Shown here: positions 6,167 to 56,357 of the stretch, in pieces | Numbering within the stretch: position 1 is the stretch's first letter | How the letters are laid out: every line of letters starts with the position of its first letter | Assembly (NCBI RefSeq): GCF_009184865.1 | Contig: NZ_CP045096.1 | Location: 5,146,001-5,210,000 of the forward strand | Source: Streptomyces phaeolivaceus | Lineage (GTDB): Bacteria; Actinomycetota; Actinomycetes; Streptomycetales; Streptomycetaceae | Length of the DNA stretch: 64,000 nucleotides | Reading direction: 5' to 3' | The notes under the pieces: generated by a model | The model's input: only the letters and a program-made list of their open reading frames with translations | Database searches by the model: none | What the model was told of the DNA's origin: nothing | Program-made: the position numbers and the translations under genes

Positions 6167-6303
6167 CAGTTGTTCCTTAGGTTGCGACGTGGCATGAGGG
6201 CACCTGACCTGCGTACCCACGCACGAGCCTAAACCCGGACGCTCACGCACACCTGCGGGCATACCCGCTCAAAAGTACGCCCCGACCTGCGGCTTCGCGC
6301 CGA

Positions 6304-6326
6304 GGGCCCGGTGATCCACCGGGCCC
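6304..6326 (-). terminator. Hairpin downstream of dnaN
   Basis: A 10-bp stem (GGGCCCGGTG with CACCGGGCCC) and a 3-base loop lie about 50 bp past the dnaN stop in the direction of transcription. No T-run is evident, which is common in Streptomyces. Function inferred from position. Confidence 0.5.
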
Positions 6327-6378
6327 CGCGGTGCTGTGGACGACCTCCGGCGCCTCGGCCGCGGCGGTGTCCGGCCAG

Positions 6379-7509
6379 TCAGCCGCTGAGCCGCACCGGC
6401 ATGATCAGGTACTTGTAGGCCTCGTCCGCCTCGGCGTCCACGGCCGGCTTGCCGCTGAGCAGCGCGGGCTTGGTGGACGTCGTGAACGACAGCTGAGCGA
6501 CCGGGGAGTCGATGGCGCTCAGGCCGTCCAGCAGGAACGTCGGGTTGAAGGCGATCGAGATGTCGTCGCCCTCCAGCTGGGCGTCGACCCTTTCCACAGC
6601 CTGTGCGTCGTCGCTGGAACCGGCCTCCAGGATCAGCACGCCCTGCTCGAAGCTCAGCCGCACCGGGGTGTTCCGCTCGGCGACCAGGGCGACACGCTTG
6701 ACGGCCTCGACGAAGGGGGCGGTCTCGATGACGGCGACGCTGTTGAACTCCGTCGGGAACAGCGTGCGGTACTTCGGGAGGTCGCCCTCCAGCAGTCGTG
6801 TGGTCGTACGACGGCCGGCGCCCTCGAAACCGATCAGGCCCTCGCCGGAACCCGAGCCGGAGAGCGCCAGGATGACGCTGTCGCCGCTCGTGAGCGCCTT
6901 GGCGGTGTCCAGGAGCGTCTTGGCGGGCACCAGGGCCACCGCGGACGCCTCGGGGTTCTCCGGCTTCCACAGGAACTCGCGGACCGCGAAGCGGTAGCGG
7001 TCGGTGGAGGCCAGCGTGACCGTGTCGCCCTCGATCTCGATGCGCACACCGGTGAGGACGGGCAGGGTGTCGTCGCGCCCGGCGGCGATGGCCACCTGGG
7101 CGGCGGCGGAGGCGAAGACCTCGCCGGGAACGGTGCCTGTGGCGTTCGGCATCTGCGGCAGCGACGGGTACTCCTCCACAGGCAGTGTGTGGAGGGTGAA
7201 GCGCGAGGAGCCACAGACCACGGTCGCCCGCACACCGTCCGTGGAGATCTCCACCGGTCGGTTGGGGAGCGCGCGGCAGATGTCGGCGAGCAGTCGGCCG
7301 GAGACGAGCACCGTGCCCTCCTCGTCGACCTCCGCCTCCACGGACACTCGCGCCGAGACCTCGTAGTCGAAGCTGGAGAGGCTCAGCTGGCCTTCCTCGG
7401 CCTTCAGAAGGAGGCCGGCGAGGACAGGCGCCGGCGGACGGGCCGGGAGGCTGCGCGCCGCCCAGGCCACGGCCTCCGCGAGTACGTCGCGTTCCACCCG
7501 GATCTTCAC
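6379..7509 (-). CDS. dnaN: DNA polymerase III beta sliding clamp
   Basis: Ring-shaped processivity clamp that tethers the replicative polymerase and other enzymes to DNA, 376 aa. The GTG at 7509 is chosen because GGAGG lies 7 bases upstream and the product starts MKIRVERDVLAEAVAW, the family N terminus. Three clamp folds are expected at roughly 1-120, 130-250 and 255-376. The C terminus (YKYLIMPVRLSG) is the usual clamp ending with the conserved MPVRL strand. It is the first gene left of oriC and is transcribed away from it. Confidence 0.98.
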   Translation of the reverse strand: MKIRVERDVLAEAVAWAARSLPARPPAPVLAGLLLKAEEGQLSLSSFDYEVSARVSVEAEVDEEGTVLVSGRLLADICRALPNRPVEISTDGVRATVVCGSSRFTLHTLPVEEYPSLPQMPNATGTVPGEVFASAAAQVAIAAGRDDTLPVLTGVRIEIEGDTVTLASTDRYRFAVREFLWKPENPEASAVALVPAKTLLDTAKALTSGDSVILALSGSGSGEGLIGFEGAGRRTTTRLLEGDLPKYRTLFPTEFNSVAVIETAPFVEAVKRVALVAERNTPVRLSFEQGVLILEAGSSDDAQAVERVDAQLEGDDISIAFNPTFLLDGLSAIDSPVAQLSFTTSTKPALLSGKPAVDAEADEAYKYLIMPVRLSG

Positions 7510-8410
7510 TGTTGCCGCCTCCTGCTGTTGCCGGCGCTTCTCGCCCTGCCTGGCTTCGTCGTCTGTCCGGTGTCGCTGGTTCCTGTGAGGGGAAGGACAC
7601 CGGGGAACAGTCTGACGCACACCACTGACACTCGGAGCCTCTCGGGGTCAAGTCGTGACGAGGCGCGGTCAGGCAGCCCAGAGCGAGTTGTGCACAGGAC
7701 CCACTTCGAAACGGATTCCCAGCTCTCTCTAGTTGGGAGTAGTAGTAGGGCCTGTGGAAACCGTGGATAACCCCGTTTTCGCAGCTCAGGCGGCAAATTT
7801 TGTCCACCGGGCCTGTGGGCGGAGCCGGTGGACAACCGGGGGTATCTGTGGAGAACAGAAAGTTCTGCACACGCCGTGCACAGCCCCGGGGCACTTCTCC
7901 CCAACGGCGTCCCCAGGTTTACCCGCCTTTCCCACAGCCCAACCAGGCAACTTCATGTGACGCCTTTCACTCGACACGGTGAGGAGGCGCGTTGGCTTGC
8001 CGAACAGTGGACAGGCATGTGGAGAAGCCGACGATCACTGGGGACAACTGCCCTCAGCCTGTGGGTTGTCGGTGGACAACTCCGTCCACAGTCTGTGGAT
8101 CCCCGCTTCGTCCACAGCCTGTGGAGATCTTTCGTCCACGGATCCACAGGGGGTTGACCTGGCTCGATGATCCCTCGATCGTCCGCCCTGTGGACACGAT
8201 CTGCATAACTTCCCGGTCCCCAGGGTGTGGACGGGAAAAAGTCCCCGAATCTGTGGAGGGAGGCCGTAACGCGGCAGGTAATCGAACACCTGATGACGGC
8301 GCGACGACGGCCGAGGCCTGCCCGGAGGACGGACGGGGCCCCGCAGGAACGCCGAAGGCGCCCTCGGGAACTCGTCCCGGGGCGCCCTCAGCGACGTACG
8401 GCGGCCTCTG
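7510..8410. other. oriC: Chromosomal replication origin oriC
   Basis: A 900-bp gene-free region between dnaN and dnaA, the standard Streptomyces origin position. It is packed with 9-mers close to TTGTCCACA on both strands between about 7689 and 8262. Clear examples are 7800-7808 (TTGTCCACC), 7828-7836 (its complement), 7848-7856, 8039-8047 (complement of TTGTCCCCA), 8071-8079, 8082-8090 and 8108-8116. The densest and closest-spaced group is 8039-8155. I count at least fifteen with two or fewer mismatches by eye. No AT-rich 13-mer array of the E. coli type is obvious. The rightmost 50 bp hold the dnaA terminator. Confidence 0.95.
8357..8386 (-). terminator. dnaA terminator hairpin
   Basis: GGCGCCCTCGGGA pairs with TCCCGGGGCGCC with one bulged base. 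It lies 25 bp beyond the dnaA stop in the direction of transcription, and would keep dnaA transcripts out of oriC. Confidence 0.55.
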
Positions 8411-10444
8411 TCAGCCGTTCTTGATGCGGTTCGTCAGCTCCGTCACCTGGTTGTAGATGGAGCGGCGCTCGGCCATCAGCGCGCGGATCTTGCGGTCGGC
8501 GTGCATGACGGTGGTGTGGTCACGGTTGCCGAACTGCGCGCCGATCTTGGGCAGCGACAGATCGGTCAGCTCACGGCACAGATACATGGCGATCTGCCGG
8601 GCGGTGACCAGGGCGCGACCCCGTGAGGTGCCGCAGAGATCCTCCACCGTGAGCCCGAAGTAGTCGGCCGTCGCGGCCATGATCGCCCCGGCGGTGATCT
8701 CGGGGGACGCGTTCTCGCCGCCCGGGATCAGGTCCTTGAGCACGATCTCGGTCAGCCCGAGGTCCACCGGCTGCCGGTTGAGCGACGCGAACGCCGTCAC
8801 CCGGATCAGCGCGCCCTCCAGCTCGCGGATGTTGCGCGAGATACGGGACGCGATGAACTCCAGTACCTCCGGCGGGGCGTTGAGCTGCTCCTGCACCGCC
8901 TTCTTGCGGAGGATCGCGATACGCGTCTCCAGCTCCGGCGGCTGGACGTCGGTGATCAGACCCCACTCGAAACGGTTCCGCAGCCGGTCCTCCAGGGTCA
9001 CCAGCTGCTTCGGCGGCCGGTCGCTGGAGAGCACGATCTGCTTGTTCGCGTTGTGGAGCGTGTTGAAGGTGTGGAAGAACTCCTCCTGCGTCGACTCCTT
9101 GTCCGCCAGGAACTGGATGTCGTCCACGAGCAGGATGTCCATCTCCCGGTACCGCTTGCGGAAGCTGTCGCCCTTGCCGTCACGGATCGAGTTGATGAAC
9201 TCGTTGGTGAACTCCTCCGAGCTCACGTACCGCACCCGCGTACCCGGGTAGAGGCTGCGCGCGTAGTGCCCGATCGCGTGCAGCAGGTGCGTCTTGCCGA
9301 GTCCCGACTCCCCATAGATGAAGAGGGGGTTGTACGCCTTCGCCGGCGCTTCGGCGACGGCCACCGCCGCCGCGTGCGCGAAACGGTTCGAGGCACCGAT
9401 GACGAAGGTGTCGAAGAGGTACTTCGGGTTGAGGCGTGCGGTCGGTTCACCCGGACCGGGCGCCGGCGCGGGCTGCGCCGCCAGCGGGCCGGGCGCGCTG
9501 CTGGCCGGGCCGCCCCGGTGCACATGCCCCGAGCCCGGCGGCGGCTCGGGGAGCTCACGCCGGTCCGGACGCGCGTAGTCGGAGTCGGACCCCGGCCGGT
9601 CGTAGTCGCCGCGGCCCTGGTCGTAGTCGGAGCGCGGGGAGTCGTACTCGGAGCGCTGCTGGTCGTACGGCGGCCGGTCCATCGGCTGCGAGCGGTAGTC
9701 CGACGACGGCGAGGCGTACGGGTCCCGCTCCGGGAAGCCGAGCCGCTGCTGCTGCCAGCCGTAGTCGTCCTGCGACGGCCGCGGCCAGGCGCCGGGCTCG
9801 GGGCGCTGGTACTCGGACGGATACGCGGGGCGCGCGGTCGGAAGCTGGTCCGAGCGGCCGGTGGGGAGCTGTTCCGAGCGCGGGGGCGGCAACTGGTCGC
9901 CGGGCCCGCCGCTCAGCTGCTCGCCGCCACGTCCCGGACCGCGGTCGTCGGCCCGATGGCGGCCGTATCCCTCATAGGGGCCGCGGCCTTGGCCGTCGTA
10001 TCCGTTCTGATTGTCGTACGTGTTCTGGTTCTCGTACCCACCACGCGCGTCGCGCCCCTGGCCGTCGTACGCACCCCTGTTGTCGTAGCCGTCGCGGTTC
10101 TGCGACGGGACGGAAGGAAGCTCCGACTCCTCGAAACGGTGCTGCGCCGGCGGGGACGGCTGCTCGCCGACAGAGCTGTCGACGGTGATCGCGATACGGA
10201 TCGGGCGCCCGCACTCCCGGCTCAGGGTCTCGCTGACGATCGGCGCGAGCCGGCCTTCGAGTACGCCCTTCGCGAACTCGTTCGGAACGGCGAGAAGAGC
10301 CGTGTCCGCGACCAGCGCGAGGGGCTGGCAGCGCTTGATCCAGCGCTCGTCCTTCACCTCGACGCCTTGACCGCGGCCCTCACCGAGGAGCTTCTCCAAT
10401 ACTCGTGGCCACACTGCGGCAAGATCGGCAGGTACGTCAGCCAC
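8411..10444 (-). CDS. dnaA: Chromosomal replication initiator DnaA
   Basis: AAA+ initiator that binds DnaA boxes in oriC and melts the origin. 677 aa from the GTG at 10444, which gives [20 protein letters not shown] (domain I). Domain III begins near residue 338 ([13 protein letters not shown]). Walker A is GESGLGKT (378-385), and Walker B is [10 protein letters not shown]. The C-terminal domain IV helix-turn-helix contains [16 protein letters not shown]. Domain II, about residues 95-337, is unusually long: an acidic and polar linker rich in Tyr, Asp, Gly, Arg, Gln and Pro with repeated [17 protein letters not shown] units. Long linkers are a Streptomyces trait. Two DnaA boxes in its upstream region suggest autoregulation. 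Confidence 0.98.
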
Positions 10445-43982: not shown

Positions 43983-44163
43983 CCAGATTGGCTGACGGTG
44001 CCGACGGGCCTACGGTGGTGCGGCGCCCGTTCCTCGGCAGATCACGAAAAGCTCGCAAAACCGACGCGCCAGAACCGGAGTTGGGCCTCTTATTTGTCAG
44101 TGTCGTGCCGTAGAAATGAGAAGCACGGCGAGGTCCGCTCGGCGGACGGGAGGAGGTCGCTCG

Positions 44164-45639
44164 GTGAGCATTTCCGAGCCCCTGGACGACCCGTGGGCCG
44201 ACAGCGGGCCCAGTGATCGTCTGCCCTCTTCCCGCCGCCGTGACGACGGCGGCCGGAGCAGGGACGACCGGCACGACCGCGGCCGGGACAACGGGGAGTG
44301 GGAGGGCGGAGGCTCGGCCTTCGAGCGCGTCCCACCCCAGGACCTCGACGCCGAGCAGTCGGTTCTCGGCGGCATGCTGCTGTCCAAGGACGCCATCGCC
44401 GACGTGGTGGAGATCCTCAAGGGCCCCGACTTCTACAAGCCGGCGCACGAGACCATCTATCAGGCGATCCTCGACATCTACGCCAAGGGCGAGCCCGCCG
44501 ACCCCATCACCATCGCCGCCGAACTCACCAAGCGCGGCGAGATCACCAAGGTCGGCGGCGCCTCCTATCTGCATACCCTCGTCCAGACCGTGCCCACGGC
44601 GGCGAACGCCGAGTACTACGCGGAGATCGTCCACGAGCGCGCCGTTCTGCGCCGCCTGGTCGAGGCCGGCACCCGAATCACCCAGATGGGATATGCGGCC
44701 GACGACGACGTCGACGAGATCGTCAACAGAGCCCAGGCCGAGATCTTCGCGGTCACCGAGCAGCGCACCACCGAGGACTATCTGCCCCTCGGCGACATCA
44801 TGGAGGGCGCGCTCGACGAGATCGAGGCGATCGGTTCACGTTCGGGGGAGATGACCGGTGTGCCGACCGGCTTCACCGACCTCGATCAGCTCACCAACGG
44901 CCTCCACCCAGGTCAGATGATCATCATTGCGGCCCGTCCCGCCATGGGTAAGTCCACCCTGGCGCTGGACTTCGCGCGCGCTTGTTCGATCAAGCACAAC
45001 ATGCCGAGCGTGATCTTCTCGCTCGAAATGGGTCGCAACGAGATCGCGATGCGTCTGCTGTCGGCCGAGGCACGCGTGGCCCTGCACCACATGCGCTCCG
45101 GCACGATGACGGACGAGGACTGGACGCGGCTGGCCCGCCGGATGCCGGACGTCTCGGCCGCGCCGCTCTACATCGACGACTCCCCGAACCTGTCGATGAT
45201 GGAGATCCGCGCCAAGTGCCGACGGCTGAAGCAGCGCAACGACCTGAAGCTCGTGATCATCGACTATCTGCAGCTCATGCAGTCCGGTGGCAAGCGATCC
45301 GAGAGCCGTCAGCAGGAAGTCTCGGACATGTCGCGAAACCTGAAGCTGCTGGCCAAGGAGCTGGAGCTGCCGGTGATCGCGCTCTCCCAGCTCAACCGTG
45401 GTCCCGAGCAGCGCACGGACAAGAAGCCCATGGTCTCCGACCTGCGTGAGTCGGGATCGATCGAGCAGGACGCGGACATGGTGATCCTGTTGCACCGCGA
45501 GGACGCGTACGAGAAGGAGTCGCCGCGCGCCGGCGAGGCCGACATCATCGTCGGCAAGCACCGTAACGGCCCGACGGCCACGATCACGGTCGCCTTCCAG
45601 GGCCACTACTCACGGTTCGTGGACATGGCACAGACCTGA
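44164..45639 (+). CDS. dnaB: Replicative DNA helicase DnaB
   Basis: Hexameric 5'-3' helicase at the replication fork, 491 aa from the GTG at 44164 with GGAGGT upstream. The first 50 residues are polar and disordered. The N-terminal domain begins VPPQDLDAEQSVLGGMLLS. The RecA-like motor has Walker A ARPAMGKST, Walker B LKLVIIDYLQLM, ELPVIALSQLNRGPEQR and DADMVILLHRED. No intein is present. Upstream lies a DnaA-box cluster. Ten bases after its stop a Tn7-like left end begins. Confidence 0.97.
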   Translation: MSISEPLDDPWADSGPSDRLPSSRRRDDGGRSRDDRHDRGRDNGEWEGGGSAFERVPPQDLDAEQSVLGGMLLSKDAIADVVEILKGPDFYKPAHETIYQAILDIYAKGEPADPITIAAELTKRGEITKVGGASYLHTLVQTVPTAANAEYYAEIVHERAVLRRLVEAGTRITQMGYAADDDVDEIVNRAQAEIFAVTEQRTTEDYLPLGDIMEGALDEIEAIGSRSGEMTGVPTGFTDLDQLTNGLHPGQMIIIAARPAMGKSTLALDFARACSIKHNMPSVIFSLEMGRNEIAMRLLSAEARVALHHMRSGTMTDEDWTRLARRMPDVSAAPLYIDDSPNLSMMEIRAKCRRLKQRNDLKLVIIDYLQLMQSGGKRSESRQQEVSDMSRNLKLLAKELELPVIALSQLNRGPEQRTDKKPMVSDLRESGSIEQDADMVILLHREDAYEKESPRAGEADIIVGKHRNGPTATITVAFQGHYSRFVDMAQT

Positions 45640-45649
45640 CCCGGGGAAA

Positions 45650-45876
45650 TGTAGGGTCTCAGATTTCGTGGCACAGTCTCAGCCGCGATGGCACAACGGT
45701 GGCACTTATGCCGCCATCGTGAGACTCCCTGGTCGGAGCTGTCCGGTCTCAGTGAAGCGGGGCCTGTCGCACTCATCTGCGTGCTGACCGTGCCGTGTAC
45801 GGGGCGGGGACAGGTTTGAGTGAGACGGTGTCCCGCTTTGGGGTGGCTCTTGTCTCGCTACAGGTGGCTTGTCTCA
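45650..45876. repeat. Left-end repeats of the Tn7-like element
   Basis: GTCTCA occurs at 45656, 45676, 45746 and 45871, and the complement TGAGAC at 45720 and 45821. That is six copies in 221 bp, far above chance. Such repeated motifs are what TnsB-type transposases bind at an element end. The outermost TGT matches Tn7-family termini. The adjoining 230 bp before tnsA hold no other gene. Confidence 0.6.
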
Positions 45877-45898
45877 TTTCAGTGGACATCGTCCTGGT

Positions 45899-46648
45899 GT
45901 GGATGATCAGGGGAAGTCGCAGAGCGGCAGGCACAGGGCAGTCGATTTCGAGGTGGCCTGGGTTCAGGGCGGGGTCGAGGTACGCGGGTCGCTGGCGGAC
46001 GTGACGGAGCTGGCCTTCGAGGAGGCCGATCCGGTACGGGAGTTCCCGTCGTACCGGGGGCAGAGGAACTTTCCGGGCTTGTACTGGGCGGCCACGATGC
46101 TGCGGCACGTGGGGTTCGAGTCCTGGCTGGAGCGGGATCATGCGATCTCGATGGACTTCGACCCGCGCGTCATGTGGTTCGCGTCGCAGCCGTTCTGGCT
46201 GTCCTGGACGTCGCCGGAGGGGGTGCGGCTGTCCCACGCGCCGGACTACTTCGCCCGGCGGACCGACGGAACGGCCGTGGTGGTGGACTGCCGGCCGGAG
46301 GCTCGCCGGAGCAAGCCGAGGGACCTGGCCAAGTTCGCCGGTACGCAGATGGCGTGCGAGGCCGTGGGCTGGGACTTCCAGCTCGTGGGCGAGATCGACC
46401 GGGTGCGGGTGGCGAACCTGCGGTGGCTTGCCGGGTTTCGTCATCCGCGTTTCGCCCAGGCCGGGTTGGAGGAAGTGGTCGGGGCCGCCTTCGCCGTTCC
46501 AGGACCACTGGTGGGCCAGGCAGCGCAGGTCGGTGACCCGATCCTGGTGCTGCCGGTCGTCTTTCATCTGCTGTGGTGCGGACGGCTGACGACAGACCTG
46601 TCGCGCCCCTTGGGTGATCACTCTTTGGTGAGCCGGGTGGAGGGCTGA
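45899..46648 (+). CDS. tnsA: TnsA-like transposase endonuclease subunit
   Basis: About 249 aa from the GTG at 45899; the start is uncertain because no ribosome site is clear. It is a heteromeric transposase endonuclease subunit that would cut the 5' strand at transposon ends. Conserved segments: REFPSYRGQRNFPGLYWAAT, VGFESWLERDHAISMDFDP with the acidic catalytic Glu, and HAPDYFARRTDGTAVVVDCRPE with the catalytic Asp. The usual E-x-K of PDDEXK nucleases is replaced by VDCRP, as in other actinobacterial TnsA-like proteins I know. The stop overlaps the tnsB start by one base (TGATG). Confidence 0.8.
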   Translation: MDDQGKSQSGRHRAVDFEVAWVQGGVEVRGSLADVTELAFEEADPVREFPSYRGQRNFPGLYWAATMLRHVGFESWLERDHAISMDFDPRVMWFASQPFWLSWTSPEGVRLSHAPDYFARRTDGTAVVVDCRPEARRSKPRDLAKFAGTQMACEAVGWDFQLVGEIDRVRVANLRWLAGFRHPRFAQAGLEEVVGAAFAVPGPLVGQAAQVGDPILVLPVVFHLLWCGRLTTDLSRPLGDHSLVSRVEG

Positions 46649-48696
46649 TGACCGAGCACGAGCGGCCCAAGGGCGTGTTGCGGGTGGGCGACCGTGTCCG
46701 GTTCGAGGACCGGGTCCACACAGTGGTGGGTCTGTCGGGCACGACGGTCCGCCTGCTCGACGAGCACAACAGCGCGAGCATGGTGATGTTCGCCCACCTG
46801 ATGGCGTCAGAAGGGTTCGAGCTGCTGGACTCAACGGCACCCACGCCGGGGCTTCCGCCCTTCGGCCTGTTGGACACCGTTCCCGAAGTGGCCCTGCGCA
46901 AGGCCCGGTTCTATGAGAAGCACCTGATCGAGGTGGAGACCGGGCTCCCTCCCGAGGCGCCGAAGGGAGCTGTTCCTCGGCCTGAGTACGACCCGCAGTG
47001 GCGAACCGTGAACGAACGCGTCGTGGCCAAAGCGGCCGAGTTGACCGCAGCAGGCAACGAGGTGTCGGACCGGACCCTGTTCCGGCTGAGGTCGAAGTGG
47101 CGGGACGAGGGGCTCTGGGGGCTGGTGGACCGGCGAGCCACCCGGCTGTCCATGGCGCCGGGCATCGGGCGGGTGGACGAGCGCCTGGTCGAGGCGGTGC
47201 TGGAGGTCCTGACCGCGCAGGAGGATTCCTCGTCGGGGACCCGCACCCGCGTGATCCGGCTGGCCGAGAAACTCGTCGCCGAGCGGCACGGGGAGGGCAC
47301 GGTCCCACTGCCGTCGAGGGCGACGTACTTCCGGCTGCTCAAGTCGCTTTCCGAGGGGCGTCACAGCTTCGGGGCGGCCACGACCCGGCGCTCTCTGGCC
47401 GGGCGCCCGGAGGCTCCGTTCACTCCGACGCTGGCCGCCAGGCCCGGTGAGGTGGTGCAGATCGACACCACTCCGCTGGACGTGCTGGCCGTCCTGGACG
47501 ACGGCGTGACCGGCCGGGTTGAGCTGACGATCGCGGTCGATGTCGCCTCGCGCACCATCTGCGCGGCGATCCTGCGTCCGGCCGGAACGAAGGCCGTGGA
47601 TGCCGCACTGCTGCTGGCGCGGATGCTGGTGCCCGAACCGATGCGGCCCGGCTGGTCGGACGCCCTGCGGATGTCCGCCTCGCTGATCCCGCACGCCCGG
47701 CTGATGAGCGTGGATGCCCGTCTGGAGCACGCCGCGGCACGTCCGGTGATCGTCCCGGACACGATCATCGTGGACCGGGGCAAGGTCTTCGTCTCGGACA
47801 CGTTCGTCGCGGCCTGCCGTTCGCTGGGCATGTCCTTCCAGCCCGCACGGCCGGCCACGCCGACGGACAAGGGAATCGTGGAACGGACTTTCGAATCGAT
47901 CAACACGCTGTTCTGCCAGCATGTCGCTGGATATGTCGGCTCCGACACCACCCGCCGCGGCCGCGACGTCCAGGCGGTCTGGACGATCGCGGAACTTGCC
48001 GATCTCTTCCACGAGTGGGTTATCGCCCGGTGGCAGACCCGACCGCACGATGCTCTGCGCAGTCCGTTCCTGCCGGGCAAGGCCCTCTCGCCGAACGAGG
48101 TCTACGCCATGCTGGTCTCCCGCACCGGCTACCTGCCGGTCTGTCTCGACGGTGACGACTACATCGAGTTGCTGCCCGTCGAGTGGCGGAAGATCAACGA
48201 CTACGGCATCACGCTCGACTACCGCACCTACGACTGCCGGGAGTTGGGCTCCTACCGGCGCCAGCCGTCCGGAGTGGACACCAAGGGCAACCTATGGGAG
48301 GTCCATTACGACCCCTACGACCTCTCGCATGTCTGGGTACGCGACACCCGGGCCGGAGGCTGGATCACCGTTCCCTGGACCCGGCTGGGCACGGTCTCCG
48401 CGCCGTTCGCCGACTTCACCTGGCGCCATGCCCGAGCCGTGCTGGCCGCCAAGGGCGCCGACGACTCCGACGAGGACGCCATCGCCGTCGTCATCGATGA
48501 CCTGCTGACCCGCGCCGGGAGCGGGCCCGACCGGCGCATCGCCGCCCGCACCAAGGCGGCAACTGCCGTTCCCGCGCTGCCGCAGGCACGGCGCGAACCC
48601 CAGCCGGAGACGGACGAGGAACCTGACGGCGAGGGCGAGATCGCCCAGGTCATCCCGTTCGGTGTGTTCGATGCCTTCACCGATGGGAGTCGCTGA
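46648..48696 (+). CDS. tnsB: TnsB/Mu-type DDE transposase
   Basis: 682 aa. It contains an N-terminal DNA-binding region with helix-turn-helix character (VSDRTLFRLRSKWRDEGLWGLVDRR), then the RNase H-like core with the DDE triad Asp273 (VVQIDTTPLDV), Asp376 (TIIVDRGKVFVS) and Glu412 (DKGIVERTFESI). The last two have the classic D-35-E spacing. The Mu-type C-terminal beta-barrel follows (DYIELLPVEWRKINDYGITLDYRTYDCREL). All catalytic residues are present and the frame is intact. Its stop and the next start overlap by one base (TGATG). Confidence 0.9.
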   Translation: MTEHERPKGVLRVGDRVRFEDRVHTVVGLSGTTVRLLDEHNSASMVMFAHLMASEGFELLDSTAPTPGLPPFGLLDTVPEVALRKARFYEKHLIEVETGLPPEAPKGAVPRPEYDPQWRTVNERVVAKAAELTAAGNEVSDRTLFRLRSKWRDEGLWGLVDRRATRLSMAPGIGRVDERLVEAVLEVLTAQEDSSSGTRTRVIRLAEKLVAERHGEGTVPLPSRATYFRLLKSLSEGRHSFGAATTRRSLAGRPEAPFTPTLAARPGEVVQIDTTPLDVLAVLDDGVTGRVELTIAVDVASRTICAAILRPAGTKAVDAALLLARMLVPEPMRPGWSDALRMSASLIPHARLMSVDARLEHAAARPVIVPDTIIVDRGKVFVSDTFVAACRSLGMSFQPARPATPTDKGIVERTFESINTLFCQHVAGYVGSDTTRRGRDVQAVWTIAELADLFHEWVIARWQTRPHDALRSPFLPGKALSPNEVYAMLVSRTGYLPVCLDGDDYIELLPVEWRKINDYGITLDYRTYDCRELGSYRRQPSGVDTKGNLWEVHYDPYDLSHVWVRDTRAGGWITVPWTRLGTVSAPFADFTWRHARAVLAAKGADDSDEDAIAVVIDDLLTRAGSGPDRRIAARTKAATAVPALPQARREPQPETDEEPDGEGEIAQVIPFGVFDAFTDGSR

Positions 48697-49520
48697 TGAC
48701 GCACTTCCTGGAGCCGGAAGAGGTCGACCACCCGCTGACGACGAAGGAGGGCTGGACCGCCTTCACCGCGGAGGCCACCACTCCGCCGGCTGTCTTGGCG
48801 CCCGCGGCCCTGCAGCGGCTCAGCGAGGCGGAGCGAACCGCCTACGACCAGGCTCTGGAGGACTATCACGCGCAACTCGTCATCGTCTCCACGCCGACGA
48901 TCCGCCATGTCACCGCGACCGGACGCAAGCGCATCGTGCTCAACCGGCACCAGCACTCCGCGCGCCGCGGACTGATCGTCTCGGGCCCCGCCGGGACCGG
49001 GAAGACCACCGCCATCACTCAACTGGGCAAGAACTACGAACAGTTGGGACGGCGCCGCGGCGAGATCATGCCGGAATCCCTGCCGGTCGTCTACGTCACC
49101 GTCCCGCCCGCGGCCACCCCGAAAATGCTGGCCATCGAGTTCGCACGATTCATCGGCCTGCCGCTGCCCTCGCGCTTCAGCCAGGTCGAAGTGACCAACA
49201 AGGTCTGCGATCTGCTCTGCACCCTCGGCTGCCGTCTCGTGCTCATCGACGAACTGCACAATCTCGACATCGGTACGCGGGTGGGCGCCGAGGCATCCGA
49301 CCAGATCAAGTACCTGTCCGAGCGCATCCCCGCGACGTTCGTCCTGGCCGGCGTCGAGGGCACCGGACTATTCGCCGGACGCCGCGGCGGACAGATCGCC
49401 AGCCGTTACACCCTCATTCCCACCAGCCCGTTCCACCACAAGACCGAGGAACAGCGCGGCTCCTGGTGTTCTCTCGTGGTGACTTTGGAGGAGTCCCTGC
49501 GGCTGCGAGCCCACCGGCTG
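48696..49520 (+). pseudogene. tnsC: Truncated TnsC-like AAA+ ATPase (first copy)
   Basis: Starts at ATG 48696. About 275 residues look like TnsC: Walker A GPAGTGKT (97-104), Walker B CRLVLIDELHNL, sensor region ATFVLAGVEGTGLFAG, and RYTLIPTSPFHHKTEEQRGSW leading into a helical lid. At about 49510-49535 the homology stops and the frame continues as Arg-rich shadow translation to 50399. The expected C-terminal domain (lid and TniQ or TnsB contacts) is missing. The AAA+ core could still fold, but normal function is unlikely. Confidence 0.8.
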
Positions 49521-50604
49521 GGGACGCACCGTCCTCGTCGATGTCGAGGGCGCCACCGGGCCGGGGCTCGCCTCGCCGCCCCTGGTTCCCGAGACGCTGG
49601 TGGTCGATCACGGCAAGGTCTACGTCTCCGAGCATCTGACGAGTGTCTGCCGTCGGATAGGCATTTCGATCCAACCAGCGAGGCTGCGAACGGGCCGGGA
49701 CAAAGGGCCGGTGGAGCGCTATTTCCGCACGCTGCGCGAGGGCCTGCTGCAGGCCCTGCCCGGCTACAAAGGTCCCGACATCCACTCCCGTGGCGAGAGC
49801 CCGGAAGACGACGCGTTCTTCTTCCTCGACGAGTTGGAGGCGATCATCCGGGAGTGGACCGCGACGGTCTACCACAGCCGGCCGCACTCCAGTCTGGTCG
49901 ATCCAGGCATGCCGGGGCTGCGGATGTCCCCGGCGAAGATGTTCGAGCACGGGATGGCCAGGGCCGGCTACATCGAGGTCCCCCGCGACCGGGACCTCGC
50001 CTTCGAGTTCCTGAAGACCGAGTGGCGCACGATCCAGCATTACGGCGTGGAGATCGGCCACCGTCGCTACAGCGGCCCGGGCCTGCCCGATCCCGGGATC
50101 CGCAGTCCCTACGACGGCCTGGTGAAGAACGGCTGGCCGTTCCAGGTCGACCCCGACGACATCACTCGCATCTACTTCCGCGACTCTGGTCGTCACTGGC
50201 AGACGTTGACCTGGGAGCACGCGCCGTCGGCGCGGATGCCGCTGAGCGAGGACGCGCTGGCCTTCGCCCGGAAGCTGGCCGCCGTGAAATACCGCTACCC
50301 CGACGACCGGCTCGCCGTCGCCGACCTGCTGGAACGCTGGAACCTCGGGCTGGGCACCACACTCGCCGAACGGCGCATGGCCCTGCGGCTCTCGCGTGAA
50401 CAGGCCGCCATCGACCTCCCCGACACCGAGCAGGAGGCGGTCGTTTCTCTTCCGTCGGTACGCGAAGCCCTGGGCCACGACGACGGACCGTCAGAGGCCG
50501 AAGCCCGGGAGCCGGTGGCTGAGACGGGCGATGACGACGAGGCCGACCTCGAAGACCTCGCCCAGGAGAGCGACTTCTACGCGGACGCCCTGGAGGACGT
50601 GTGA
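49505..50604 (+). pseudogene. tnsB: 5'-truncated TnsB-like transposase (second copy)
   Basis: The frame is open from 49483. Transposase-like sequence begins near 49517 (TVLVDVEGATGPGL) and runs to the TGA at 50604. It keeps the second catalytic Asp (LVVDHGKVYVSEH, codon at 49606) and the Glu (DKGPVERYFRTLRE, codon at 49714), again D-35-E. It also has the C-terminal Mu-type barrel (EWRTIQHYGVEIGHRRYSGPGLPDPG). The N-terminal DNA-binding part and the first Asp are gone. A GTG at 49600 could restart translation. The stop overlaps the next gene (GTGA), so this half keeps its native order. Confidence 0.82.
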
Positions 50605-51719
50605 CTACGGCCAGTCTGCCGAACCTGGGAAACCTGGCGCTGTCGCGGAAGGAAGACTTCAAAGTGTTCGCCGAGGCTGCCTGCCGCGACCAGCCCCCGG
50701 TGCTGAACCGGACTCAGTTGAACGCCTTGAGTGAACCGGCAAGAGCCGATTACGACCGTCGGCGGCGTGAGTGGCACGCGAACCTCGGACCGATCAAGAC
50801 ACCTCAACTGGCCGAACTGCACAGTGACTTGTGGGACATCGTCGACAGCAACCAGCAGGACGGGGACAAAGCCAAGGGAGCAGTGGCCGTCGACGCCTTC
50901 CCGGGTCTGGGCAAGACCACTTCGGTGCTGGCCTTCGCGCGTAAGTTCCACCGCAGGGAGATCGCCGAACAGGGAGAGTTCACTGCGGCCGGCCATGAGC
51001 GCTGGCCCGTCTGCAGGGTCGGGCTCACGGGCAACACCGGTATGAAGGATCTCAACCGGTCCCTGGTGGAGTTCTTCGGCCACCCCGGCCGTATCCGCGG
51101 AACCACCGCTCAGCTCGGGCAGCAGGCCCTGGACTGCGTTCTGTCCTGTGAGGTCCGTGTCCTGGTACTCGACGACCTGCACTTCTTGAAGTGGGGCAAG
51201 ACGAACGGCATCGAGGTCAGCAACCACCTCAAGTGGATCGCCAACGAGTTCCCCGTGACCCTGGTGATGATCGGCGTCGGTCTCGCCGGGAAAGGTCTGT
51301 TCAGCGAGGGGGACAAGCAGAGCGATTCCGCCCTGGCCCAGACGGGCCGTCGCACCACCCGCCTGGGCATGCCTCCCTTCGCCATCAAGACCGAGAAGGG
51401 ACGGCAGGCCTGGCGGCAGATGCTGCTGACCCTCGAACAGCGCGTTGTTCTCGCGGACAAGTACCCCGGCATGCTCGCCGACGACCTGTCCGACGACCTC
51501 TTCGCCCGCAGCACCGGGCACATCGGATCGCTTATGACGCTGATCAACCGCGGCTGCCAGCGCGCCGTCCGCAGCGGCGCCGAATGCCTCAGCCGCGATC
51601 TGCTCGCCGGAGTGAAGAACGACGAGGCATCCGAAAACGCCCGCCAGGAGCTCGAAGCCGCCCTGCAGACAGGACGCCTGACCAGCCGCCCTCAGACTGG
51701 CCGCGGGAAAGCGGCATGA
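50601..51719 (+). CDS. tnsC: TnsC/TniB-like AAA+ ATPase (second copy)
   Basis: 372 aa from GTG, coupled to the upstream tnsB fragment. Walker A AFPGLGKTT (99-107), Walker B VRVLVLDDLHFLKW, sensor VTLVMIGVGLAGKGLFSEGD, then an arginine-containing RTTRLGMPPF and a helical lid (RSTGHIGSLMTLINRGCQRAV). It is complete at both ends by comparison with the first copy's core. It would pass target information from TniQ to the transposase. It overlaps tniQ as ATGA. Confidence 0.88.
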   Translation: MTTASLPNLGNLALSRKEDFKVFAEAACRDQPPVLNRTQLNALSEPARADYDRRRREWHANLGPIKTPQLAELHSDLWDIVDSNQQDGDKAKGAVAVDAFPGLGKTTSVLAFARKFHRREIAEQGEFTAAGHERWPVCRVGLTGNTGMKDLNRSLVEFFGHPGRIRGTTAQLGQQALDCVLSCEVRVLVLDDLHFLKWGKTNGIEVSNHLKWIANEFPVTLVMIGVGLAGKGLFSEGDKQSDSALAQTGRRTTRLGMPPFAIKTEKGRQAWRQMLLTLEQRVVLADKYPGMLADDLSDDLFARSTGHIGSLMTLINRGCQRAVRSGAECLSRDLLAGVKNDEASENARQELEAALQTGRLTSRPQTGRGKAA

Positions 51720-52750
51720 CGGCCGCACCGAGGACACTGCCACTCAGACTGCAGCCTGCTGAAGGAGAAGCTCTCGATTCCTGGCTGGAAGCCCTGGCCC
51801 ACCGGCATCACAGCCCCCTTGGGAACCTGCTGGAGGCTCTTGGTCTGCCTTCGCCCAAAGGTCAGCAAGCTCCGCGGTGCTCCAGCCCAACGGAGCGGAC
51901 GATCAAGCTGAGGCCGCATGAGATTTCGTCCATCGCGCACGCGACGGGTGTCGAGCCAGCGCGGATCGCTCGCATGACGCTCGCCCATTTCCACGGGAGG
52001 GCCCTCCTTTTGAGGGAGCGCCAGCCCCGCGTCAACCGCCACATTCTATGGGGCCGTGCCTCAGGATCACGATTCTGCCCGGACTGCCTTGCCTCCTCCG
52101 GCGGGAGGTGGCAACTGACCTGGCGCCTCGGATGGTCCTTCGCCTGCGTCCACCACCTGCGGCTCCTCGCTGACGCCTGTCCCTGCTGCGGCAACACGCA
52201 ACGAGACCGGCCCCATCAGCGCACGGAGATCCCCCACCCCGGACGCTGCCGAAGAGCCGGGAATTGTGAACCGGATGATCGCCGTTCAGCCCTCTGCGGT
52301 CACGACCTCACCGACGTCTCCACGCTCACACTGCCTGCCGGGCACTTCGCGCTGCGAGCGCAGACTCTGATCCTGGACGCGATCACCTCCGGAGCCGCCC
52401 AGTTCGGCGTCTACGCGAGGTCACCTCAACCAGTGGCCGTCGCTCTGGCCGACGTCCGTACGGTCGCGAGCCGACTCCTGGCCACCGCCAACTCCGAAGA
52501 ACTGTCGTCCGTAGTCCCTGGGGACCTGATCGACGAGCACCTGTCCGTTCCCCGCGGACGCCGCATGGCGCTCAAACGACCAGGTTTCATGGCACCGTCC
52601 ACCGCGGTCAGCACCGCCGTCGCGATCACAGCAGTCCTGAAAGCCCTGAGTGAACCGGACATCCAGCAGGCCGGCAGCATCATGCGTGACCTCCTCCGGG
52701 CGATGGAACGAGAAGACCGGGCAGTTACCGCGAGCGACATCTACCACTGA
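51716..52750 (+). CDS. tniQ: TniQ family target-selection protein, 3' end probably lost
   Basis: 344 aa. The TniQ zinc-binding N-terminal domain is visible: LPLRLQPAEGEALDSWLEALAHRHHSPLGNLLEALG, then GSRFCPDCLASSGGRWQLTWRLGWSFACVHHLRLLADACPCCG with CxxC pairs. A further Cys/His stretch contains HPGRCRRAGNC and ALCGHDL. The C-terminal part (about 225-344) is helical. The TGA that ends it (52748-52750) overlaps the first bases of the adjacent IS, so the native C terminus may have been cut and the stop supplied by the insertion. Confidence 0.75.
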   Translation: MTAAPRTLPLRLQPAEGEALDSWLEALAHRHHSPLGNLLEALGLPSPKGQQAPRCSSPTERTIKLRPHEISSIAHATGVEPARIARMTLAHFHGRALLLRERQPRVNRHILWGRASGSRFCPDCLASSGGRWQLTWRLGWSFACVHHLRLLADACPCCGNTQRDRPHQRTEIPHPGRCRRAGNCEPDDRRSALCGHDLTDVSTLTLPAGHFALRAQTLILDAITSGAAQFGVYARSPQPVAVALADVRTVASRLLATANSEELSSVVPGDLIDEHLSVPRGRRMALKRPGFMAPSTAVSTAVAITAVLKALSEPDIQQAGSIMRDLLRAMEREDRAVTASDIYH

Positions 52751-52780
52751 GCGACTCTGTCGGGAATCTTGAGGATGGGC
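52749..52780 (+). repeat. IS left inverted repeat
   Basis: Starts GAGCGACTCTGTCGGG, then AATCTTGAGGATGGGC. It pairs with 54514-54545. Confidence 0.8.
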
Positions 52781-52847
52781 AGTTAACGATCGTGACGTTG
52801 CGTCAGGCTCGTTGGAACGTTCCGCCCTCGTTCCCCAGGAGCCCGAT

Positions 52848-54512
52848 GTGTCCCTCCAGCCTCACTCCGGAGCCGAGATCCCGCCGCTGACCGCCCGGGT
52901 TGCCCGCGCGGCCAACCCCAAAGGCACCACCGCGATGTGGATCCGCGACCGCCTCGACGGCCTCTGGAGCGACGAGGACTTCACCGCCTGGTACCCGCGT
53001 GACGGCCGACCTGGGCTCTCACCCGCCCAACTCGCCACCGTCTGCGTGCTGCAGTACGCGATGAACCTCTCCGACCGCCAGGCCGCCGAGGCAGTGCGCT
53101 GCCGAATCGACTTCAAGTACGCCCTCGGCCTGGACCTGGACGATCCCGGCTTCCACCACAGCGTCCTGTCCGACTTCCGCGACCGGCTCGCCGAAGGCGA
53201 CCGCGCCGACCGGCTACTGGGCCTCGCACTCACCCGGATCCGACGGGCCGGCCTGCTCAAAGGGCGGGTCACGCAGCGCACCGACTCCACCCACGTCCTG
53301 TCCGCCGCACGGGAGCTGACCCGCCTGGAGCTGGCGTGCGAGGCGGTCCGCGCCGTGCTGGAAGAGGCGGCCCGCGACGCGCCAGAGGTGCTGGACGAGC
53401 TGGTCACCGCCGAATGGGCCCAACGCTACGGCCGGCCGGTTCGCCTGTGCTCCCAGCCCAGCCACCCCGTCGCCCGCCTGGAGCAGGTGGGCAACGACGC
53501 CCGCGAACTGCTGTACCGTCTCGACGCCCGGTTCCCCGGCGGCGCTCCGGCGCAGGCGAACGTGCTCCGAACGATCCTGGTGCAGCACTTCTTGGTGGAT
53601 GCCAAGGGGCGGTTCAGGCCGCGCACGAAACGCGACGGCCAGCCGCCCTCCCGAGTCCGAATCGAATCCCCGTACGAGACCGAGGCCCGCTGCACCATGC
53701 GCGGTGACACACGCTGGACCGGCTACCTCGTGCACCTGACCGAGACCTGCGACGACAAGCGGGTCAACATCATCACCGACGTGGCCACGGCCGTCTCCAG
53801 CGCGGACAGCCAGGCGCTGCCCGGCATCCACGCCCGCCTCAGGCGACGGCGTCTACTGCCGAATCGGCACTTGGTCGACGGCGGCTACACCTCCGTGGCC
53901 GGCATGGACGAAGCCGCCCGCCTGCACCGCGTCACCCTGATCGGGCCGCTTCCGCCCAGCACCACCCCGCAGCACCGGGCAGGGGACGGCTTCGGCCGGG
54001 AGAACTTCATCATCGACTTCGACCAGCGCGAGGTGACCTGCCCCAACGGGCAGGTCAGCGGCAACTGGCAGGACCTGCCGACAGTCGAGCCGACCAAGGT
54101 CACAGTCCGGTTCGACGCCCGCCAGTGCGGCCGCTGCCCCGAGCGGGCCAAGTGCACTCCGGGCCGGTTTCGCAGCCTGTACTTCCCGACACGGCGCCTG
54201 TACGAACTCCAGGTCAAGAACCGGGCCGATCAGCAGGATGCGGACTGGCGCCGGCTCTACAGGCGGCGCTCGGGGGCCGAGGGCACCATCGAGGAGTTCG
54301 CGGACGGCCACCGCGGACGCCGGTGCCGCTACCGCGGCCTGGCCAAGACGCACGTCCAGCACGTCCTGACCGCACTCGCGATCAACATCGAGCGGCTGAG
54401 CCTTCAAGAACCCGCCGACAGCTCGTACCGGCCCCGCCCTCCCACAGCATTCCAGCAGTACCTCGACGCACGCGACTTACCCCGGCCGCTGTGGTGGCGC
54501 CAAGGGAAGTGA
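52848..54512 (+). CDS. IS1182-like family DDE transposase
   Basis: 554 aa from the GTG at 52848, chosen for AGGAG upstream; a TTG at 52812 is an alternative. The InsH-type N-terminal domain (ARAANPKGTTAMWIRDRLDGLW, LSPAQLATVCVLQYAMNLSDRQAAEAVRCRIDFKYALGL) precedes the catalytic core: Asp in QRTDSTHVLSAAR, Asp in LVDGGYTSV, and Glu in RSGAEGTIEEF. A zinc-finger-like insert (CGRCPERAKCTPG) sits before the final Glu, as in IS1182/ISL-type enzymes. The frame is intact, so this IS may be active. Confidence 0.88.
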   Translation: MSLQPHSGAEIPPLTARVARAANPKGTTAMWIRDRLDGLWSDEDFTAWYPRDGRPGLSPAQLATVCVLQYAMNLSDRQAAEAVRCRIDFKYALGLDLDDPGFHHSVLSDFRDRLAEGDRADRLLGLALTRIRRAGLLKGRVTQRTDSTHVLSAARELTRLELACEAVRAVLEEAARDAPEVLDELVTAEWAQRYGRPVRLCSQPSHPVARLEQVGNDARELLYRLDARFPGGAPAQANVLRTILVQHFLVDAKGRFRPRTKRDGQPPSRVRIESPYETEARCTMRGDTRWTGYLVHLTETCDDKRVNIITDVATAVSSADSQALPGIHARLRRRRLLPNRHLVDGGYTSVAGMDEAARLHRVTLIGPLPPSTTPQHRAGDGFGRENFIIDFDQREVTCPNGQVSGNWQDLPTVEPTKVTVRFDARQCGRCPERAKCTPGRFRSLYFPTRRLYELQVKNRADQQDADWRRLYRRRSGAEGTIEEFADGHRGRRCRYRGLAKTHVQHVLTALAINIERLSLQEPADSSYRPRPPTAFQQYLDARDLPRPLWWRQGK

Positions 54513-54513
54513 C

Positions 54514-54545
54514 GCCCGTCCTCAAGATCCCCGACAGAGTCGCTC
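54514..54545 (-). repeat. IS right inverted repeat
   Basis: The complement reads GAGCGACTCTGTCGGG, then GATCTTGAGGACGGGC. It differs from the left repeat at two positions. Confidence 0.8.
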
Positions 54546-54573
54546 ACTGCCCACTGCCCACTGCCCACTGCCC
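54546..54573 (+). repeat. Four tandem copies of ACTGCCC at the IS edge
   Basis: Four perfect 7-bp units start directly at the IS boundary, followed by about 40 bp of unremarkable sequence to the next gene's stop. Confidence 0.85.
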
Positions 54574-54615
54574 GCAGTCCGCCAGACGGGGGTTTCGCCA
54601 AGTGGGGTGAGGGGC

Positions 54616-54855
54616 CTAGTACCCCTGGTACCCACCCCGCTGCTGGCCGTTCTCGTCGACGATCTGAGTGGTGGGGGGCGGTACCACGACCCGCCTCCGC
54701 TTGGCGATGCTGCTGAACGTCGCGACGCCGATGAGTCCGACGATCATGAAGATGATGCCGACCAGGTCGAGGTTGACGCCCTGCATGTCCCAGTCGGTGG
54801 CGAACGTGAGGATGGCCCCCACCGCGATCAGAATGATGCACCCGCCCAGGCCCAT
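54616..54855 (-). CDS. DUF6458 family small membrane protein
   Basis: 79 aa with two hydrophobic helices: GGCIILIAVGAILTFAT (4-20) and LDLVGIIFMIVGLIGVATF (29-47). A basic KRRRVVV patch follows, with a polar tail ending GGYQGY. This pattern is the actinobacterial DUF6458 family. The GGGAGG before the ATG supports the start. Function unknown. It is the first host-type gene beyond the insertion sequence. Confidence 0.82.
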   Translation of the reverse strand: MGLGGCIILIAVGAILTFATDWDMQGVNLDLVGIIFMIVGLIGVATFSSIAKRRRVVVPPPTTQIVDENGQQRGGYQGY

Positions 54856-54978
54856 GAGTGTTCCCTCCCAGTGTCCGGTTGGGTCGGCCGGTCGTTCCGG
54901 TCGTTCGGTCCTACCGGTGGCTACCGGGTACCCGGAGGGGCCGTTCAGTAACAGCAGTTGAGGGTCGGGCCCTACGGG

Positions 54979-56277
54979 TCAGCCCTCCAGGAAGGACACC
55001 AGGGCGTTCGCGAGGAGGTAGGGGTCCTTCGCGCCGCACAGCTCGCGGACGCTGTGCATCGAGAGGATGGCGACGCCGATGTCGACGGTGCGGATGCCGT
55101 GCCGGGCGGCGGTGATGGGGCCGATGGTGGTGCCGCAGGGCATGGAGTTGTTGGAGACGAACGTCTGGAAGGGCACGCCGGCCTTCTCGCAGGCGGCGGC
55201 GAAGACGGCACGGCCCGAACCGTCCGTGGCGTAGCGGTTGTTGACGTTGACCTTGAGGATCGGGCCGGCGTCCGCGCGGGGGTGGTGCGTCGGGTCGTGG
55301 CGCTCCGCGTAGTTGGGGTGGACGGCGTGCCCGGTGTCGGAGGAGAGACAGACCGAGCCGGCGAGGGCACGGGCACGGTCCTCGTAGGAGCCGCCGCGGG
55401 CGAGGACCGAGCGCTCCAGCACCCCGCCGAGCAGCGGGCCGTCCGCACCGGTGTCGGACTGGGAGCCGTTCTCCTCGTGGTCGAAGGCGGCGAGGACGGG
55501 GATGTACGGAAGGTCGTCACCGGAGGTGGCGACCGAGGCGAGTGCGGCCGTACCGGCGTGCACGGAGAGGAGGTTGTCCATGCGGGGACCGGCGAGCAGT
55601 TCGTTGTCGCGGCCCAGATAGGCGGGCGGTTCGACGGAGTGGGTCATCAGGTCCCAGCCGGTGACCTCGCCCTTGGGGAGACCCGACTCCTCCTCCAGGA
55701 AGGCGATCAGATCGCCGTCGCGGACGTCGTCGCCGAGGCCCCAGACGGGCTGGAGATGACGCTGCTTGTCGAGCTTGAGGCCGTCGGAGGTGACGTTGCG
55801 GTCGAGGTGGATGGCGAGTTGGGGGACGCGCAGGAGGGGTCTGTCGACGTTGACGAGACGGCTGCCGCCGTCGCGCAGGGAGAGCCGGCCGGCGATACCG
55901 AGGTCGCGGTCGAGCCAGGAGTTCAGCAGCGGGCCGCCGTAGATCTCGACGGCGATCTGGCGCCAGCCGTGGGCGCCGCTGTCGGGGCGGGGTTTGACCC
56001 GCAGATTGGGGGAGTCGGTGTGGGCACCGACGATACGGAAGGGGGTGTGGGGGTGAGCGCCCTCCGGCACGTACCAGGCGATGATCGCGCCGCCGCGCAG
56101 CACGTACCGGCCGCCCAGCGATCCGTCCCACGCGTCGGTCTCCGAGAGCTGCCGGAAGCCTGCCTTCTCCAGCCGTTCCGCGGCGCTCGCCACCGCGTGG
56201 TACGGGGTGGGGCTGCTCGCCAGAAAGGTCATGAGGTCGTCGGTGTGGCCGCGATCGAAGCGTGGGGGTGTGCGCAT
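54979..56277 (-). CDS. M18 family aminopeptidase
   Basis: 432-aa dinuclear-zinc aminopeptidase (ApeB/aspartyl aminopeptidase type) that removes N-terminal residues, often acidic ones. The ATG at 56277 has AAGGTG upstream. Metal ligands and catalytic residues: VGAHTDSPNLRVKP (first His and Asp), FDHEENGSQSDTGADGP (catalytic Glu and metal Glu), and SSDTGHAVHPNYAERHDP. The C-terminal ligand region is near NNSMPCGTTIGPITAAR. Cytosolic; normal length. Confidence 0.92.
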   Translation of the reverse strand: MRTPPRFDRGHTDDLMTFLASSPTPYHAVASAAERLEKAGFRQLSETDAWDGSLGGRYVLRGGAIIAWYVPEGAHPHTPFRIVGAHTDSPNLRVKPRPDSGAHGWRQIAVEIYGGPLLNSWLDRDLGIAGRLSLRDGGSRLVNVDRPLLRVPQLAIHLDRNVTSDGLKLDKQRHLQPVWGLGDDVRDGDLIAFLEEESGLPKGEVTGWDLMTHSVEPPAYLGRDNELLAGPRMDNLLSVHAGTAALASVATSGDDLPYIPVLAAFDHEENGSQSDTGADGPLLGGVLERSVLARGGSYEDRARALAGSVCLSSDTGHAVHPNYAERHDPTHHPRADAGPILKVNVNNRYATDGSGRAVFAAACEKAGVPFQTFVSNNSMPCGTTIGPITAARHGIRTVDIGVAILSMHSVRELCGAKDPYLLANALVSFLEG

Positions 56278-56357
56278 GGGGTTCACCTTAACGACGTACG
56301 AGAGCCCACTCCGGGGGATGGGAGCGGGCCCTCGTGGTGAGCGTGTGGAGGAAGGGA

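Follow-up and report, generated by a model that had tools for sequence, protein, structure and literature searches.

Downstream of the host gene dnaB, a stretch of DNA from Streptomyces phaeolivaceus carries genes of two different Tn7-like transposase modules, one running into the other within a gene; how did the two come to be joined, and can the product still move? The window, that is, the whole stretch of 64,000 nucleotides that was analysed, corresponds to G000:C2:5146001-5210000 within a 10.18-Mb genome of two contigs. After dnaB the gene order is tnsA1, tnsB1, a cut tnsC1, the C-terminal half of a tnsB gene, tnsC2 and an open reading frame (ORF) with a TniQ domain; the tnsA1/tnsB1/tnsC1 side is called family 1 (f1) and the tnsB2/tnsC2/tnsD2 side family 2 (f2). 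The locus very probably holds the remains of two nested Tn7-like transposons, which were fused by a deletion and then split by an inversion.

The joint was located at position 49525, where codon 276 of tnsC1 is fused to the last 359 codons of tnsB2. To its left, all on the + strand, stand tnsA1 (45869..46648; an intact ORF with 292 bits for NF033179 at a cut-off of 110, the Pfam TnsA score being just below its cut-off), tnsB1 (46648..48696; intact, 92.8% amino acid identity to the copy in genome G155, ratio of non-synonymous to synonymous substitution rates (Ka/Ks) 0.109) and the first 276 codons of tnsC1 (48696..49525), a gene of 351 codons in G155. To its right, on the same strand, the C-terminal 359 codons of tnsB2 (49525..50604), without the N-terminal half, lead into the intact ORF of tnsC2 (50601..51719; TniB/AAA+ by domain match). 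The named records among the matches to TnsB1 place the five closest in Streptomyces. The original prediction, made from the letters of the window, had described an intact tnsA-tnsB pair followed by a tnsC that loses homology at about 49510-49535, and the junction falls inside that range; the different, 5′-truncated tnsB with its own tnsC and TniQ-domain ORF was also present as described. Its claim of the same D-35-E spacing in both tnsB genes held in part: by eye, the truncated product (TnsB2′) retains the second Asp and the Glu at the spacing of TnsB1, 35 intervening residues, but the stretch bearing the first Asp is gone from TnsB2′. The roles of these residues are catalytic.

A query spanning the junction (window 48696-50604; query base 830 equals 49525) was compared with 392 same-genus genomes, 278 of which gave some match. 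Strong matches confined to the left part stopped at query base 823-830 (G155, G248, G349, G253, G262 and G350) and those confined to the right part began at 830-833 (G195, G348, G028, G367, G283, G003, G009, G168, G248, G166 and G293), some others beginning slightly further inside than base 833. Among the matches listed, only that of G000, the window's own genome, crossed the junction base. A second sample of 394 genomes, partly overlapping the first, gave matches in 27 genomes (E ≤ 1e-40), and all 27 listed matches besides G000's own stayed on one side of 49525. In a plasmid collection 19 records matched, in no case across 80% of the query; Streptomyces and Rhodococcus plasmids carry f2-like stretches, and in one plasmid record (H3) the f2 match begins at exactly the junction base. 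Each half occurs in an element of its own in other genomes, an outcome that had been named as support for a fusion, and neither of the two findings that had been named as arguments against a fusion was obtained: the arrangement was not conserved in many strains, the junction being confined to the window's genome among the matches listed, and a sequencing error does not account for it, as the joined genes exist apart elsewhere. Homologous recombination at the junction is unlikely, since side-by-side comparison of the parents gave one shared base (C) only.

The right-hand parent was identified from relatives. Ends of the form TGT...ACA and 5-bp repeats are traits of Tn7. The f2 gene set comprises tnsA2, tnsB2, tnsC2 and tnsD2 (TnsA, TnsB, TnsC and TniQ/TnsD genes are found in relatives such as G348, G367 and G003), and f2 lies directly after dnaB in G348, G367, G003, G009, G293, G333, G033, G283, G028 and G130. 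Its left end reads TGTRGG.TCTCA, separated from the dnaB stop codon by a spacer of 7-11 bp, and its right end is the inverted tip. The 5-bp repeats match in G367, G003, G009, G293 and G033 and do not match in G028 and G333; that of the dnaB-site element which carries f1 in G155 differs by one base, and for G348, G283 and G130 the right end was not seen in the stretches examined. In the window, dnaB (44116..45639, +) was recognised as an ORF whose 3′ end is the attachment site, the left-end motif following its stop in relatives. Next come GGAAA (45645..45649), the left copy of the f2 5-bp target duplication, with the same 5 bp after the right end at G000:C2:5056330, and the outer 90 bp of the f2 left end (TGTAGGGTCTCA..., 45650..45739, +), which resemble the left ends of other dnaB-site elements. 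A dnaB stop followed by the left-end motif was found in 33 of the 392 same-genus genomes, window included, and in 1 of 392 with the reversed-pattern control; being exact, the pattern passes over variant ends, those of G155 and G348 among them. Many of these loci are remnants, rearranged or cut by contig ends, since tnsA was seen within about 1.5 kb in 12 of the 30 inspected (of the 33). These sequence comparisons indicate that the 3′ end of dnaB is a recurrent Tn7-like attachment site in Streptomyces, specific and beside a conserved gene. Tn7-like ends in head-to-tail arrays, a right end being separated from the next left end by 2-6 bp, were observed at L037/L038 (G248), L046 (G166) and L052 (G028).

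The f1 end in the window lies at 45740, 90 bp from the f2 tip at 45650. This left end of the nested f1 (TGTCCGGTCTCA..., 45740..45868, +) starts at the border from which the f1 elements of G155 and S. actuosus share sequence, and is preceded by GGAGC (45735..45739), the left copy of a presumed f1 5-bp duplication whose right copy is lost, at a position equivalent to ACTGC in G155. There f1 is complete (5,565 bp, L136 9097-14661) and adjoins dnaB. When G155 was aligned with G003, which has the uninterrupted (empty) site, homology extended across dnaB and into the left end for 89 bp, broke off for 5,565 bp and resumed after f1 for 121 bp at 95% identity. The inserted piece starts with TGTCCCGTC, ends with GACGGGACA and has ACTGC on both flanks; it codes for TnsA1, TnsB1, TnsC1 and a TniQ1 of 268 amino acids with a TniQ domain above cut-off. 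Other f1 elements are flanked by CCCCT (G248), TCTTC (G350), GAAGC (G253) and GACCG (L139), by 6-bp repeats in S. actuosus and by non-matching repeats at L140 and L141; the right side is lost or unseen in G000, G187 and G262, and no f1 right end was found near the locus in G000. The tips of f1 and f2 have 10 of 12 bases in common. In every character that could be checked, gene set, ends and duplications, the sequences of both f1 and f2 are those of Tn7-like elements. The G155/G003 comparison, together with the f1 end at 45740, assigns the outer left and far right ends to f2, with f1 inside. Free reassortment of ends between tns families, considered from the left-end types, was rejected, as nesting fits G155 and G000 better.

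The same comparison bears on the idea, put forward in the original prediction, of a deletion between neighbouring elements. A deletion did fuse the two modules; f1, though, was no neighbour but lay 90 bp inside the f2 end. Two elements side by side at dnaB, with a deletion from tnsC1 into tnsB2, would have precedent in the tandem arrays of G028, G166 and G248, but f1 has its own ends within an f2 end (complete and with 5-bp repeats in G155, empty site in G003) and begins in the window at 45740 rather than 45650. A tandem origin is largely contradicted by G155 and G003 and is very improbable.

The f2 target selector is broken. The window holds the first ~340 codons of tnsD2 with the TniQ domain (51716..52750, +), the stop falling at the border of an IS1182-family insertion sequence (IS). 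What had been called tniQ2 does contain a TniQ domain, but its ORF of 344 amino acids is only the front, ~340 residues, of a TnsD-like protein. Among five translated relatives, TnsD2 has 877-885 amino acids in four and 770 in the remaining one; two tested relatives have TniQ at residues 9-151 and a LysR-type helix-turn-helix (HTH) near the C-terminus, possibly the domain that reads dnaB. Such f2 selectors (TniQ proteins of ~880 amino acids with a C-terminal LysR-type HTH) were noted at L040 12213-14858 and L044 5553-8203 (− strand). Residues 340-637 and 628-879 lie beside another IS1182 copy; on the reverse complement of L125 they occupy 5879-6766 and 8208-8939, and an ISAs1-family transposase separates them. 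The element therefore does not end at 52.75 kb, as first supposed: IS1182 was inserted there and the remainder is ~134 kb away.

The IS1182 element (52751..54547, +, ends approximate; transposase 52812-54512) is one of an inverted pair: window 52744-54549 is 100% identical, over 1,806 nt, to the copy at G000:C2:5062612-5064417 (L125), 134,327 bp apart. Beyond it follows host DNA placed there by the inversion (54548..56286), with an M18 aminopeptidase gene at 54979-56286 on the − strand. The usual downstream flank of dnaB is 135-140 kb away in G000, and the DNA now beside IS1182 is found ~122-221 kb upstream of dnaB in six of seven relatives (on separate contigs in G024). Judged by these flank positions, and provided that the 1.8-kb repeat was assembled correctly, an inversion of ~134 kb, with dnaB in the flipped segment, is derived in G000. 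A proper right end closes the f2 right arm at G000:C2:5056330, with GGAAA after it, and the last 2.78 kb of the arm are 96.4-96.7% identical to the elements of G003 and G333. A short array of CACTGCC repeats was observed at the IS1182 border (54548-54577), and the other copy has the same repeat at its outer border. Three more genes of G000 score above the family cut-off as TnsA-like (4647172, 4649405 and 8149104; L054, L055); two of these lie next to each other at 4.65 Mb in divergent orientation.

The anatomy described so far is seen directly in the sequence. From it we infer the events that follow, including the order of the deletion and the tnsD2 interruptions. An f2 element with TnsA2, TnsB2, TnsC2 and a long TnsD2 would have inserted just after dnaB, duplicating GGAAA; f1 would then have inserted into its left end, 90 bp from the tip, presumably duplicating GGAGC. 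An illegitimate deletion of ~3.65 kb would next have fused tnsC1 to tnsB2, taking away the last part of tnsC1, tniQ1 and the right end from f1 and, from f2, the inner left end, tnsA2 and the 5′ half of tnsB2; the lost DNA was estimated from relatives as 1,777 bp of f1, 1,865 bp of f2 and the repeat. IS1182 and an ISAs1-type element would have interrupted tnsD2, and finally the inverted IS1182 copies would have recombined, flipping ~134 kb and carrying the right half of f2 away.

Several points count against this history. Since f1 in G000 has lost its right end together with the repeat there, nesting in this genome rests on the left boundary and on G155; the inversion depends on the assembly across the 1.8-kb repeat; tnsA1, tnsB1, the cut tnsC1 (tnsC1′), tnsB2′ and tnsC2 are still open with low Ka/Ks; and an abortive f1 insertion with an adjacent deletion would leave the same scar. 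In that last case the left end would have joined at +90 while the other side broke and joined tnsB2, so that a full f1 was never there. The missing f1 right end near the locus is compatible with such an aberrant insertion, but a two-part accident is required, and G155, G248, G253 and G350 each carry a nested f1 that has both ends and repeats that match; the possibility is very improbable. The preferred reading remains a complete nested f1 that was later deleted in part.

Can the fused set still work? The surviving pieces (tnsA1, tnsB1, tnsC1′, tnsB2′ and tnsC2) gave Ka/Ks values of 0.11-0.24 against intact relatives, with 0.20-0.24 for tnsC2 against L043, L051 and L042; values above 1 for tnsC2 against L040 were a reading-frame artefact and were left unused. 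Codons 114-276 of tnsC1′ gave 0.29 against the decayed copy of G262 (G155 against G262, 0.16). As these pieces are open with low Ka/Ks, decay has been recent or slow; at most, such values attest that the genes were once under constraint and decayed recently, and they do not show activity. What is missing from f1 is the end of TnsC, TniQ and the right end; f2 keeps both ends but no longer has TnsA2, the N-terminal half of TnsB2 or a selector in one piece. The match of the G155 TnsC to the solved VchTnsC reaches residue 320, 44 past the break. The original prediction of one heteromeric set (tnsA1, tnsB1, tnsC2 and tniQ2) was not upheld for the present state of the locus, the f1 right end being gone, f2 lacking TnsA2 and half of TnsB2, and the selector lying in three pieces. 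A working hybrid, in which TnsA1/TnsB1 would work on the f2 ends together with TnsC2 and TniQ2, would draw on the intact ORFs of tnsA1, tnsB1 and tnsC2 with their low Ka/Ks, on the presence of both f2 ends with matching repeats and on the 10 of 12 bases common to the tips; it is very improbable, given that the selector is split by two insertions and the inversion, that the f1 and f2 ends differ, and that no second copy was among the matches listed (392 and 394 genomes). No complete combination of transposase, TnsC, selector and matching ends was found. Since f1 and f2 each lack needed parts, the hybrid in its present form is probably unable to transpose by itself; it is a fossil.

The position of f1 recurs in other genomes. 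Five of the eleven f1-type left flanks lie inside a TGTRGG-type tip, at 90 bp in G000, 89 in G155, 92 in G248, 92 in G350 and 90 in G253, and in these five TGAGA begins 20-22 bp before the guest. Those in G155, G248, G350 and G253 are separate insertions, because both f1 ends are present and the repeats differ; the inner left end of the carrier was seen to resume after f1 in G155 and not in G248, G350 or G253. Five of eleven further, more distant loci have an f1-like end (G311, G525, G459, G439 and G632). That of G311, at dnaB, lies 84 bp inside the tip, and its guest's right end was searched for and not found; the G525 sequence is cut 2 bp before the f1-like end. Among 345 family genomes no closer f1 member was found, the best match after the window's own being 75% (G595), followed by 69%. 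A 5,916-bp contig (L053/L137) starts 2 bp before an f1 left end and stops exactly at its right end, boundaries expected of a multi-copy repeat collapsed in assembly.

On balance, the flanking sequences tip towards f1 being a Tn7-like transposon that prefers the left end of other Tn7-like transposons as a safe site. By a similarly modest preference, its insertion point would lie 84-92 bp from the tip, between the end repeats and tnsA, a placement that can spare the mobility of the carrier and let f1 ride with it; and the fusion in the window would, somewhat more probably than otherwise, be debris of such hitchhiking. Against targeting, six of the eleven f1-type flanks lie outside such a tip (S. 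actuosus, L139, G187, L140, L141 and G262; in S. actuosus and G187, Tn7-like end motifs stand ~60 bp before f1). The tip motif, with one mismatch allowed, occurred 62 times in 342 kb of single-strand sequence from nine loci, some of which contain such elements. The recurrent position may reflect a hot spot instead of targeting by f1.

The locus exposes two things: in Streptomyces, Tn7-like elements with a long, LysR-ended TnsD have an attachment site at dnaB, and another Tn7-like family inserts time and again at one position within the ends of other such elements. If the latter is true targeting, transposon ends would join the known Tn7-type targets, and a route would be given by which transposase modules meet and recombine. 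Neither the dnaB attachment site nor Tn7-like ends as targets, nor any paper combining Tn7-like elements, Streptomyces and dnaB, was found in the main text of the openly accessible literature searched; in the accessible text, the word dnaB is missing from PMC8649781, PMC10293859 and PMC12915292 and has other senses in PMC10991518 and PMC11208146.

Among known systems, Tn7-like site-homing transposons, as the accessible parts of PMC11406308 and PMC10293859 describe them, are similar in having TnsA/TnsB/TnsC with TniQ/TnsD and in inserting beside a conserved host or RNA gene; the host gene here is dnaB, whereas those sources name glmS, parE, comM and tRNA genes. From the site-homing elements so described, f2 also differs in the C-terminal LysR-type HTH of TnsD2. 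The Tn5053/Tn402 family is not known to have TnsA, whereas f1 has it and sits inside a Tn7-like left end. This family comprises TniABQ elements that target a resolvase res site and, in the accessible text of PMC7765201, resembles f1 in nesting at a fixed place with a preferred orientation in a carrier transposon and in 5-bp repeats; the target of f1 in G155 is the f2 left end and not a res site. Other mobile elements commonly nest in Tn7-like transposons, and the guests described in the accessible part of PMC8649781 are IS elements, compound transposons and Tn3-family members, whereas the guest here is a Tn7-like transposon too and occupies a fixed position within the end of its carrier.

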